From: Aquisalimonas sp.
Lineage (GTDB): Bacteria; Pseudomonadota; Gammaproteobacteria; Nitrococcales; Aquisalimonadaceae
Direction of reading: 5' to 3'
Assembly: GCA_007126095.1 (NCBI GenBank)
Contig: SLBZ01000034.1
Location: forward strand, 38,556-102,555
Length of the DNA stretch: 64,000 nucleotides
Shown here piece after piece: positions 12,611-19,420 of the stretch (position 1 is its first letter; every line of letters begins with the position of its first letter). A program made the translations under genes and the position numbers. The notes beneath the pieces are model-generated. The model was not told the origin of the DNA. It saw only the letters and a program-made list of their open reading frames with translations, and searched no databases.

Positions 12611-12627
12611 TGCTACCTTAGGTAACA
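12611..12627. promoter_or_regulatory. 17-bp palindrome TGCTAC-N5-GTAACA upstream of the sensor operon
   Basis: A 6-5-6 dyad with one mismatch, 41 bp before the ATG of the small membrane protein. It matches the dyad at 17227-17243 upstream of acs in both half-sites and spacing. The 17-bp N5 form is like binding sites of NtrC-family activators, so it is a candidate site for the activator encoded at 15848-17200. That assignment is inference. Confidence 0.5.
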
Positions 12628-12668
12628 AATAAGACGACACGAATCGTCAAGACCGGAGGAGAGGTTCC

Positions 12669-12866
12669 ATGGCCCAACTTCAGGAAACGGGCCCCGGCGG
12701 ATACAGCGTGCTGCTGTTCCTGCTCGGTGTGCTATTGCTGGCGTCGCCGTTCACCGTCTGGTGGATGAGCACGGGCGCACCCTGGTACACGGCATGGGTC
12801 ATCTGGGCCCTATTGATCGCACTGTCGGGCCTGATCGCCCACCGGCTCGGACACCATGACGCTTGA
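12669..12866 (+). CDS. Small two-helix membrane protein (CbrX-like) coupled to the sensor kinase
   Basis: A 65-residue hydrophobic protein with two predicted membrane helices (about residues 13-33 and 40-58) and a His-rich tail, GLIAHRLGHHDA. The ATG has CGGAGGAGAGG just upstream, a strong ribosome binding site. Its stop codon lies 11 bp inside the following kinase gene, which has no site of its own outside this reading frame, so the two are translationally coupled. In Pseudomonas a small membrane ORF named cbrX overlaps cbrA in the same way. The position, size and hydrophobicity here fit that model, though the short sequence cannot prove homology. It may assist folding or signalling of the transporter-like kinase domain. 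Confidence 0.75.
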   Translation: MAQLQETGPGGYSVLLFLLGVLLLASPFTVWWMSTGAPWYTAWVIWALLIALSGLIAHRLGHHDA

Positions 12867-17296: not shown

Positions 17297-17311
17297 TGGC
17301 ACGGCTTTCGC
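17297..17311 (+). promoter_or_regulatory. Sigma-54 (-24/-12) promoter candidate for acs
   Basis: TGGCACGGCTTTCGC matches TGGCACG-N4-TTGC at all positions but one (TCGC for TTGC), with the invariant GG and GC correctly spaced. It lies about 170 bp before the acs ATG and downstream of the palindrome at 17227-17243, as expected for activation by the neighbouring NtrC-type regulator. Confidence 0.55.
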
Positions 17312-17482
17312 TTTTGCTGGCGGATAGCAACGCGCCAGACAGAACGGCCTCACCGGGGCAGCCGCCGGTCCACACCGGCGCACTGCCCTCCCGGGGTGCT
17401 AGGCTTGCCAATAACGGGACCAAAGAAAATGACGGGTCGGTGCACCGCACCGGCCACCCATTCGAAGAGGAGGAGTCATCCC

Positions 17483-19420
17483 ATGTCCGAAACCAAGGTC
17501 TACCCTGTTTCCGCGGACGTCGCCAAGAACGCCCATATCGATGCGGACACCTACGAGGCCATGTACAAGCGGTCTCTGGATGATCCGGATGGATTCTGGG
17601 GTGAACAGGCCGAGCGGCTGACTTGGTTCAAACGCTGGGATTCGGTGAACAACTCTGATCTGGTCAAGGGCGATATCCGCTGGTTCGACGGCGGTCGTCT
17701 CAACGTCGCGTACAACTGCGTCGACCGTCACCTGGACAAGCGCGGCGATCAGACGGCCATTATCTGGGAACCGGACGACCCGAAGGATGCGGCTCAGCAC
17801 ATCACCTACCGGGATCTGCACGAGCGCGTCTCCCGGTTTGCCAACGTTCTGCTCGACCGCGGCGTCAAACGCGGCGACCGGGTGTGCATCTACCTGCCCA
17901 TGGTACCGGAAGCGGCAGTGGCCATGCTGGCCTGTGCGCGCATCGGTGCCGTTCACTCGATCGTGTTCGGCGGCTTCTCGCCCCAGGCGCTGCGCGACCG
18001 CATCCAGAACTCCGACTGCCGGGTGCTCATCACGGCCGACGAGAGCGTGCGCGGCGGCCGCAGCTTCCCGCTCAAGGCCAACGCCGACGAGGCGCTGCAG
18101 GAGTGCCCCAACGTCAGCACCGTGGTCGTGGTTCAGCGTACCGGCAACAAGGTGGACTGGAACGACAACCGCGACATCTGGTTCCACGAAGCCGCCGACA
18201 AGGCCTCGGCCGATTGCCCTGCCGAAGAAATGGAGTCCGAGGATCCGCTGTTCATCCTCTACACTTCCGGGTCCACCGGCATGCCAAAGGGGGTGCTGCA
18301 CACCTCCGCCGGCTACCTGCTCGGCGCGAGCATGACTCACCAGTACGTGTTCGACTACCAGGAGGGCGAGGTCTACTGGTGCACCGCGGACGTGGGCTGG
18401 GTCACCGGGCACAGCTACATCGTCTACGGGCCGCTTGCCAACGGTGCAACCACGCTGATGTTCGAAGGCGTACCCACCTACCCTGACGCCGGCCGCATGT
18501 GGGAGATCGTCGACAAGCACAACGTCGCCATCTTCTACACCGCCCCCACGGGCATCCGTGCACTGATGGCCAAGGGCGACGAGCCAGTGAAGAAGCACAG
18601 CCGCAAGTCGCTGCGCATTCTCGGCACCGTCGGTGAGCCCATCAACCCGGAAGCGTGGGAATGGTACTACAACGTGGTGGGCGACGGCCGCTGCCCGATC
18701 GTCGACACCTGGTGGCAGACGGAGACCGGCTCCATCATGATCTCCCCGCTTCCCGGTGCCACGGACCTCAAGCCGGGCTCGGCGACGCGGCCGTTCTTCG
18801 GCATCGAGCCGGAACTGCTGGACAACGAGGGCAACGTGCTGGAGGGCGCAACGGACGGCAACCTGTGCATCGCCCGGTCGTGGCCGTCGATGATGCGCAC
18901 GGTCTACGGCGACCACAAGCGCTTCATGGAGACCTACCTGTCCGCCTATAAGGGCAAGTACTTCACTGGCGACGGCGCGCGGCGCGACGAGGACGGCTAC
19001 TACTGGATCACCGGCCGCGTGGACGACGTGCTCAACGTGTCGGGCCACCGCATGGGCACCGCCGAGGTGGAAAGCGCCATGGTGCTGCATCCGAAGGTCG
19101 CGGAGGCAGCCGTGGTCGGCTTCCCCCACGACGTGAAGGGTCAGGGCATCTACGCCTACGTCACCCTCATGAGCGGTGAGGAGCCGTCCGACGAACTGCG
19201 CAAGGAGCTGGTGGAGCTGGTGCGCAAGGAGATCGGCGCCATCGCCAAGCCGGACTTCATCCAGTGGGCTCCGGGGCTGCCGAAAACCCGCTCGGGCAAA
19301 ATCATGCGCCGCATTCTGCGCAAGGTCGCGTCCAATGAGCTGGACAGCCTCGGCGACACCAGCACGCTGGCCGATCCGGCCGTGGTGGACGAACTCATCG
19401 AAAACCGGGAAAACCAGTAG
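17483..19420 (+). CDS. acs: Acetyl-coenzyme A synthetase
   Basis: A 645-residue AMP-forming ligase converting acetate, ATP and CoA to acetyl-CoA. The length is normal for Acs. The ATP/AMP-binding loop [14 protein letters not shown] lies near residue 260. The acetate pocket region [11 protein letters not shown], the hinge region [20 protein letters not shown], and the C-terminal [13 protein letters not shown] with regulatory/catalytic Lys606 are all present, so it should be active and open to acetylation control. The ATG at 17483 has AGAGGAGGAG upstream; in-frame sequence before it is not Acs-like. Control by sigma-54 and the upstream two-component system is suggested by the promoter and dyad in the 282-bp leader. 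A long 5' leader of about 160 nt is implied. Confidence 0.97.

Follow-up and report, generated by a model that had tools for sequence, protein, structure and literature searches.

What controls acs, the gene for acetate--CoA ligase, where it directly follows a sensor operon? The question is raised by a 64,000-nucleotide stretch of Aquisalimonas sp. DNA (GenBank assembly GCA_007126095.1, contig SLBZ01000034.1, positions 38,556 to 102,555 of the forward strand; hereafter the window), in which the genes run in the order gluQ, cbrX, cbrA, cbrB, acs, and a 17-bp palindrome, TGYTAC-N5-GTAACA, stands in front of both cbrX and acs. A preliminary description of this DNA had proposed a self-contained circuit in which the activator encoded between the two palindromes controls its own operon and acs. 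In the reading favoured here, to which we assign a probability of about 0.7, the window carries an orthologous CbrXAB system in which CbrB acts on palindromes with a five-base gap, represses cbrX, and activates acs and a second operon, called here the uptake operon, from sigma-54 promoters. Both of the targets first proposed are thus supported, and CbrB very probably acts on its own operon and on acs; the feedback is, however, more likely to be repression, and the additional target operon means that the circuit is wider than had been thought.

In the mechanism envisaged, CbrB would bind the palindromes TGTTAC-N5-GTAACA as an NtrC-like dimer. At cbrX, where the palindrome overlies a predicted sigma-70 core promoter or sits right beside it, bound CbrB would limit its own synthesis. 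At acs and the uptake operon, the arrangement would consist of two palindromes 20-22 bp apart, placed 53 bp before the sigma-54 promoter, with an IHF-like site between palindromes and promoter; phosphorylated CbrB would loop onto the sigma-54 RNA polymerase and thereby switch on the genes for taking up and activating acetate or related acids, the presumed substrate and signal, while a sigma-70-type promoter nearer acs would maintain a basal level.

Palindromes, CbrAB orthology and the reader protein

Both palindromes lie where they had been reported (Table 1). With up to one mismatch allowed, TGYTAC-N5-GTAACA has four strand-wise matches in the window, all at these two sites, against a mean of 0.02 in 100 dinucleotide shuffles; a genome-wide search, which the preliminary description had advised together with a search of relatives, covered the assembly (3,325,247 bases, 159 contigs, 95.5 % complete) and returned the same two sites as the only exact matches, the reversed control giving none. 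Among the relatives, the palindrome proved to be conserved at cbrX and at acs. All 14 genomes of the window's family possess cbrA and cbrX, in the order cbrX-cbrA-cbrB-acs throughout (acs is cut by a contig end in genomes G010 and G011), and gluQ stands in front of cbrX in 13 of them, the contig of the other, G003, beginning just upstream of cbrX. One named relative is a metagenome-assembled Aquisalimonas genome, whose CbrA is 85 % identical. In wider searches, CbrA (E <=1e-120) turned up in 41 of the 54 genomes from the order and, across the class, in 39 of 369 that were sampled; 60 loci beyond the family were taken in, leaving out G017 and G024 (order) and G247 and G412 (class).

The gap of five bases is a property of the cbr locus at large. 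TGTTAC-gap-GTAACA was scanned with gaps of 0 to 25, and genomes matching at least 10 of the 12 bases were counted. Upstream of cbrX, where the totals omit G377, G027, G025 and G193, a gap of 5 is present in 57 of 70 genomes, representing 29 of 35 groups (33 of 37 genomes in the window's order and 24 of 33 elsewhere), and every other gap in at most 7; when at least 11 bases are required, 48 genomes have gap 5 as opposed to none at any other gap. Within the family, TGYTACN5GTAACA is exact at this position in 13 of 14 genomes, G005 retaining 10 of 12 bases. Downstream of cbrB, with G028, G029, G045, G193 and G113 omitted, the gap of 5 is found in 34 of 69 genomes; at 11 of 12 bases there are 17 at gap 5, three and two at gaps 24 and 25, one at gap 15 and none at the rest, the counts at 24 and 25 being such as tandem palindromes would yield.

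By its kinase tree, its synteny with gluQ and cbrX and its helix-turn-helix, the window system is an ortholog of CbrAB, so that the earlier label "CbrB-type" named the right kind and understated the relationship. In the tree (a quick one with midpoint root, 77 of 86 rows), 65 CbrA rows, including that of G214, split from 12 rows of the second SLC5 kinase found in the window's family with a Shimodaira-Hasegawa-like approximate likelihood ratio (SH-aLRT) of 100; these 12 rows are CrbS-like by similarity, with no authentic CrbS among them. G214 is termed Pseudomonas here as the sole genome with an Rfam match to the small RNA CrcZ among 10 loci scanned (locus L122). The SLC5 domain previously ascribed to the kinase is confirmed through structure: the best match of the window CbrA in PDB is 10ed_A (E 3.1e-160), the Pseudomonas putida CbrXA structure according to the accessible part of PMC13022988, and the SLC5 part was assigned because the match spans residues 12-587, although Pfam SSF gave no match at 1e-3. 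The description of cbrB as coding for an NtrC-type activator with GAFTGA likewise holds, with receiver and sigma-54 AAA+ domains and the motif present in the translation. The cbrX protein has no match in Pfam or NCBIfam.

The palindromes are likely to be read by CbrB, since their halves match the half-sites of Pseudomonas CbrB, TGTTAC and GTAACA (as given in the consulted part of PMC8871633), and since the helix-turn-helix is nearly identical in the window (ETELARRLGISRKALWEKRQRLGIPR) and in G214 (ETELARKLGISRKCLWERRQRLGIPR). One protein and one half-site used in two architectures would be the simplest reading of this correspondence.

The acs upstream module and the predicted cbrX promoter

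In front of acs, the palindrome is present at 10 or more of 12 bases in 12 of the 14 family genomes (G011 has 9 of 12 and G002 none; in G009 it sits within the 3' end of cbrB), and a sigma-54 score of at least 0.90 is reached in 10 of 14, all 10 with a palindrome. The score is a simple consensus score with weights set by the authors from the general consensus, the other promoter scans and the IHF scan likewise relying on general consensus sequences, and the acs start codon was extrapolated in G008, G009 and G010. The spacing of 53 bp first noted between the acs palindrome and the sigma-54 element TGGCACGGCTTTCGCT is as described. Because palindrome and sigma-54 site occur together in 10 of 14 family genomes, and because the module recurs on a second operon, acs very probably has a sigma-54 promoter; rpoN is present. 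Exclusive control through this promoter is improbable, as 12 of the 14 family genomes have a conserved sigma-70-type element, TGCTAGGCT or TGCTACGCT, a putative second promoter, nearer the gene, at a distance of 58-104 bp from acs. G005 and G007, which are without this element, have two of the three highest sigma-54 scores.

Beyond the family, the association between palindrome and sigma-54 site persists: downstream of cbrB, 21 of the 34 palindrome-bearing genomes score at least 0.90, as do 2 of the 35 that lack a palindrome (Fisher p 5e-7, with phylogeny ignored), the two exceptions, G214 and G416, belonging to one clade of the tree. Shuffled controls gave a mean of 0.28 and a maximum of 2 sites, and the reverse strand of the 34 gave one. 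The spacing between palindrome and sigma-54 site was taken from 18 cases (18 and 21 differ only by rounding of the 0.90 limit) and falls into three classes, 50-53, 63-65 and 72-76 bp, about one helical turn apart. In a phasing test on 11 group values, P was 0.0008 against uniform spacing from 48 to 78 bp; the best period was 11.6 (search from 10 to 12), with a vector strength of 0.68 at 10.5 and 0.77 at 11. An IHF-like site with shuffle p <0.05 lies in the gap in 7 of the 18 cases (G000, G003, G004, G005, G006, G015 and G179).

A sigma-54 promoter between cbrB and acs could also drive a CrcZ-like small RNA, with acs expressed from its own promoter. In Pseudomonas, this very place is taken by crcZ, whose transcription depends on sigma-54 and CbrB (consulted part of PMC8871633), and locus L122 has CrcZ. 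In the window, however, acs follows cbrB, and positions 11000-20500 hold no Rfam match at E up to 1; no CrcZ was found in any of the 14 family genomes, in a scan whose controls included no positive; the leader has no AAnAAnAA-type run by eye, and the identical module precedes a protein-coding operon in the window's genome. A small RNA is thus very improbable here, and the sigma-54 promoter is better attributed to acs.

At cbrX, the situation is different, in that no sigma-54 site scoring at least 0.90 is found upstream in any of 70 genomes. Instead, the left half of the operator coincides, at the same offset, with the extended -10 pattern TGnTAnnnT in all 34 palindrome-bearing genomes of the order. 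Only 32-41 bp separate the end of the palindrome from cbrX in the window's genus, which leaves little room for a promoter untouched by it. In 10 of 24 palindrome-bearing genomes outside the order, the extended -10 stands apart, 19-23 bp 3' of the palindrome start; shuffles over all 59 rows averaged 0.8 such cases and never exceeded 3. The scan behind these counts also took in G377, where cbrA is cut by a contig end and the upstream stretch is wrong. An operator on a core promoter is a placement typical of a repressor. As the palindrome lies on or beside a predicted sigma-70 core promoter and no sigma-54 site was found, feedback of CbrB on cbrX would probably be repression rather than activation.

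Two other explanations of the cbrX element bear on the same observations. CbrB might activate its own operon: the separate -10 outside the order would make direct contact with sigma-70 polymerase conceivable, and the overlap within the order is not fully independent evidence of repression. Positive feedback nevertheless appears unlikely, given that in the order the operator would cover the -10 in 34 of 34 genomes and that the sigma-54 count upstream of cbrX is zero. Alternatively, the element might be a conserved extended -10 promoter and no operator, TGCTACnTT fitting TGnTAnnnT and position 9 being T in all 34; this is scarcely tenable, as the right half, GTAACA, is kept even though it lies outside any -10, and the palindrome coexists with a separate extended -10 in 10 of 24 genomes outside the order. 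Within small genomes of one group (f4g15, L084-L094), the cbrX operator has TGATAC in place of TGCTAC; there the gap between cbrB and acs is 51-56 bp in the nine loci that reach acs, which suggests a single cbrXAB-acs operon.

Several observations weigh against the proposed model of repression at cbrX and activation at acs. Among genomes outside the order, 21 of 24 likewise have T at position 9 of the cbrX palindrome, and TGCTAC by itself already provides TGnTA, so that the -10 overlap is partly built in and counts for less than the figure of 34 of 34 implies. CbrB autoregulation is without precedent in the characterised P. putida system, where CbrA levels are the same in cbrB and cbrXA mutants (accessible part of PMC6591292), a result that fits with the absence of the cbrX palindrome in the CrcZ-bearing G214; P. 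putida CbrB is also reported without perceptible dimerisation (PMC6296734, as far as consulted). Before acs, a sigma-54 score of at least 0.90 is absent in 4 of 14 family genomes, and the IHF evidence is mixed, 11 of 18 gaps missing p 0.05. An acs start within 1.5 kb downstream of cbrB is found in 44 of 69 readable loci, 36 of them in the window's order, and of these 44 only 24 have the palindrome and 14 the sigma-54 site. Where acs is not adjacent to cbrB, neither palindrome nor sigma-54 site lies directly upstream in any of 23 rows (L143, on a short contig, is left out), four of which (G179, G413, G207 and G274) match acs at 55-56 % only and may be other acyl-CoA ligases. In G002, of the window's own genus, the cbrX site is kept, but the readable DNA shows no palindrome either before acs or before the uptake operon. 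Lastly, all these counts cover related genomes and are thus not independent. The loss in G002 was considered as a consequence of rpoN loss, which was rejected, rpoN being present; part of the regulon may have been lost there naturally. Acs-like genes exist in all 24 genomes searched that lack adjacency to cbrB, 14 of them within 12 kb of cbrA; among those 14, three are at 55-56 % identity, and the gene of G060 lies on the upstream side.

The probable uptake operon and a second SLC5 kinase

The relatives within the family have 10 strand-wise matches to TGYTAC-N5-GTAACA at seven further places, compared with 16 for the reversed controls. That all seven are chance matches proved wrong for four: three stand before a DUF294 gene and one before a receiver gene. 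Perfect palindromes precede a DUF294/CBS/cNMP gene in G001, G007 and G012 (Pfam assignment for the G001 and G007 proteins), and by protein search this gene occurs in 12 of 14 family genomes, G011 and G013 giving no match. In the window's genome it heads an operon on contig 17 composed of DUF294, DUF4212 and an SSF symporter, which is probably an uptake operon, with acetate as a candidate substrate of the symporter. Eleven family genomes are readable upstream of the operon, and 10 of them have the palindrome there with no fewer than 10 of 12 bases, the exception being G002 (the operon of G006, cut by a contig end, is outside the 11); a sigma-54 score of at least 0.86 is found in nine genomes, in all of them at 50-53 bp, and in 7 of the 10 a second palindrome (9 of 12 bases or better) is set exactly 20 bp further upstream. 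In the window's genome, an IHF match at 9 of 9 positions has an offset of 17 from the sigma-54 site, the offset at acs being 18. As neither the sigma-54 site nor the spacing was used in finding it, the operon constitutes an independent test of the architecture, and on this sequence evidence the predicted circuit reaches beyond acs.

Parts of this operon occur next to cbrB elsewhere. Directly 3' of cbrB are found a DUF294/CBS/cNMP gene (L105 of group f110 and L107 of f131), DUF4212 with SSF (L097, f19) and SSF alone (L110, f97); other loci have unrelated neighbours. G177 (L098) has a single perfect palindrome in its whole genome; it stands some 220 bp before a DUF294/CBS gene that is located 2.9 kb 3' of cbrB.

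A second SLC5 kinase is encoded in the window's genome, on contig C117 (L047:9152-11896:-), beside a stand-alone receiver protein (12133-12507:-). Kinases of this type have 914-915 amino acids and no PAS or receiver domain by Pfam. In G005 (L038:12335-17770), where a PAS/RNase_T exonuclease protein is encoded between receiver and second kinase, the group lies after acs, and a palindrome, TGTCACATTCGGTAACA, lies upstream of the receiver gene (L062 near 1501; L038 about 12225-12241), so that CbrB may control the second SLC5 system there. No LuxR-type regulator was seen among the Pfam-scanned neighbours of the second kinase, no query for CrbR having been run.

This second system makes it conceivable that the palindromes belong to another regulator, such as a CrbR of LuxR type or some unlinked repressor, and that the link to CbrB is one of neighbourhood. 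A second kinase with a stand-alone receiver does exist in the family, and the palindrome before the receiver gene of G005 would suit such a regulator. CrbR controls acs through the ACTU motif (consulted part of PMC5715377), and with a matrix built from six published sites, whose self-scores are 14.9-21.6, the best score before acs was at most 7.1 in all 14 family genomes. Control by CrbR through ACTU was accordingly set aside, short of proof, as the scan is of low sensitivity: of two Pseudomonas-clade genomes it found G416 (16.6) and missed G214 (4.4). The ACTU sites in the accessible text of PMC5715377 have, by eye, an AC-N4-GT geometry, whereas the half-sites of the palindrome are those of CbrB; the palindrome also tracks the cbr locus through 29 of 35 groups, and downstream of cbrB it accompanies sigma-54 sites, for which a LuxR-type regulator would have no use. 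A regulator other than CbrB is thus improbable as the reader of the palindromes.

Table 1. Features of the cbr-acs locus in the window and of the uptake operon on contig 17 of the same genome.
Feature	Position	Strand	Remarks
gluQ (tRNA-synt_1c)	11666..12571	+	Pfam PF00749; syntenic marker 5' of cbrX, likewise in relatives
Putative CbrB operator TGCTAC-N5-GTAACA, cbrX promoter	12611..12627		TGCTACCTTAGGTAACA
Predicted extended -10 within cbrX operator	12611..12619	+	TGCTACCTT; putative promoter
cbrX	12669..12866	+	65-aa small protein; 11-nt overlap with cbrA (12856-12866)
cbrA	12856..15831	+	SLC5-type histidine kinase, 991 aa; PAS, HisKA, HATPase
cbrB	15848..17200	+	NtrC-type sigma-54 activator; REC, sigma-54 AAA+; GAFTGA in translation
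Distal weak palindrome, putative acs enhancer	17205..17221		9/12; 22 bp from proximal palindrome
Proximal palindrome TGTTAC-N5-GTAACA, putative acs enhancer	17227..17243		TGTTACCACGTGTAACA; 12/12
IHF-like site	17266..17278	-	GATCAATCAGTTA; 8/9 fixed positions; shuffle p 0.03
Predicted sigma-54 promoter of acs	17297..17312	+	TGGCACGGCTTTCGCT; score 0.94
Second, sigma-70-type extended -10 of acs	17397..17405	+	TGCTAGGCT; putative promoter
acs, acetate--CoA ligase	17483..19420	+	ATG 17483; NCBIfam TIGR02188 above cut-off; start aligned in relatives
Uptake-operon palindrome	contig 17, 4255-4271		11/12
Uptake-operon second palindrome	contig 17, 4275-4291		weaker
Uptake-operon predicted sigma-54 site	contig 17, 4186-4201		53 bp from palindrome

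Comparison with known systems

An analogue in geometry is NtrC at glnALG, which likewise uses a 17-bp palindromic enhancer in an equal arrangement; half-site, signal and targets are different. NtrC activates sigma-54 promoters and represses the sigma-70 promoters of its own operon.

CrbS/CrbR (MxtR/ErdR) resembles the window system in having an SLC5-fused kinase and in targeting acs and acetate genes. CrbR is, however, a LuxR-type regulator acting on an imperfect repeat before an RpoD promoter, whereas the window regulator is NtrC-type and is predicted to work with sigma-54. The contrast with CrbS/CrbR that had been drawn at the outset thus holds for the type of regulator, and the 14 family genomes gave no ACTU match before acs; it is softened by an insensitive scan and by a neighbourhood survey without a search for CrbR. 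The CrbR regulon includes PFLU5625, a putative signal-transduction protein (PMC5715377, as far as consulted). PFLU5625 may correspond to the DUF294/CBS gene of the uptake operon. Acetate activation would come under a second, mechanistically different type of control by an SLC5 kinase.

With CbrAB of Pseudomonas and Azotobacter, the window system shares the order cbrX-cbrA-cbrB, the overlap of cbrX and cbrA, a kinase of SLC5-PAS-histidine kinase build, an NtrC-type regulator, the half-sites TGTTAC/GTAACA and a sigma-54 target directly 3' of cbrB. The differences begin with the binding site, which there reads TGTTAC-N12-14-GTAACA-N15-19-GTAACA, is called non-palindromic, and is bound first by CbrB monomers (consulted part of PMC8871633); in the window the gap is 5 at both sites, and this F1-R1-R2 arrangement (N12-14, N15-19) is not encountered. 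Pseudomonas has the small RNA CrcZ downstream of cbrB and reaches acsA via Crc, whereas in the window acs stands in the place of crcZ. In P. aeruginosa, CbrB is required for growth on acetate, and acsA expression requires CbrB and CrcZ, control being exerted through a CA motif and Crc (accessible text of PMC3480352). The window has a palindrome on the cbrX promoter, and the CrcZ-bearing G214 has no N5 palindrome there; the nine class genomes without it include G214 and its tree neighbours G416 and G060.

The sensor pocket differs along the same line. In P. putida CbrA (10ED), the histidine pocket is lined by Y51, S53, W55, A56, F71, Y75, K196, F248 and F406 (accessible part of the preprint PMC13022988), and the corresponding window residues read Y, T, W, S, F, Y, K, A and F, that is, T53/S56/A248 versus S53/A56/F248. 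The latter combination occurs jointly in G214, G416 and G060 only; other CbrA rows, where readable, have T at 53 (S in G207), S or T at 56 and A, S or T at 248, the CrbS-like rows have T, T and S, and lysine 196 is conserved in all rows. The trio (L122, L131 and L129) thus has this pocket in common along with the absence of the cbrX palindrome. G416 has a sigma-54 site downstream of cbrB and A-rich CA-like runs, G060 has neither, and in the CrcZ scan G416 and G060 gave no Rfam match. The presence of crcZ downstream of cbrB is treated here as a trait of the Pseudomonas branch and not as defining CbrAB.

From this distribution a tentative evolutionary reading follows, which we hold at somewhat less than even odds as a whole: CbrAB would have been a widespread gammaproteobacterial switch for taking up and activating acetate or related acids, with dimeric palindromes and negative feedback on cbrX, and the Pseudomonas branch would be derived. 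On that branch, all within the same joint estimate, the palindromes would have given way to dispersed half-sites and CbrB autoregulation would have been lost; CrcZ would have replaced a direct metabolic target, making CbrB a global carbon regulator; and the pocket with T53 and small residues at 56 and 248 would have become S53/A56/F248. The conserved arrangement would serve as an ancestral state for testing how CrcZ/Crc control arose in Pseudomonas.

In the portion consulted, a 2022 review regards CbrAB as unique to the Pseudomonadaceae and its CbrB sites as not palindromic (PMC8871633), and a chromatin immunoprecipitation sequencing study of CbrB derived no usable consensus in its accessible text (PMC6296734). 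Neither direct control of acs by CbrB nor a palindromic CbrB operator was found reported in the open-access literature covered, which is not proof of absence; the accessible parts of PMC9100948 and PMC5073097 contain neither, the latter naming cbrA and cbrB only as transcripts. Relative to this literature, the occurrence of CbrAB beyond the Pseudomonadaceae, a dimer-type palindrome and direct control of acs in place of CrcZ/Crc would be new. Conservation yields a clear operator with exact spacing, and a small regulon consisting of cbrX, acs and the uptake operon is predicted from it. The early suggestion that direct, CbrB-type control of acs would be a variant wiring agrees with the classification favoured here: the system is CbrAB with a variant operator and a variant wiring, and not a new kind of system.

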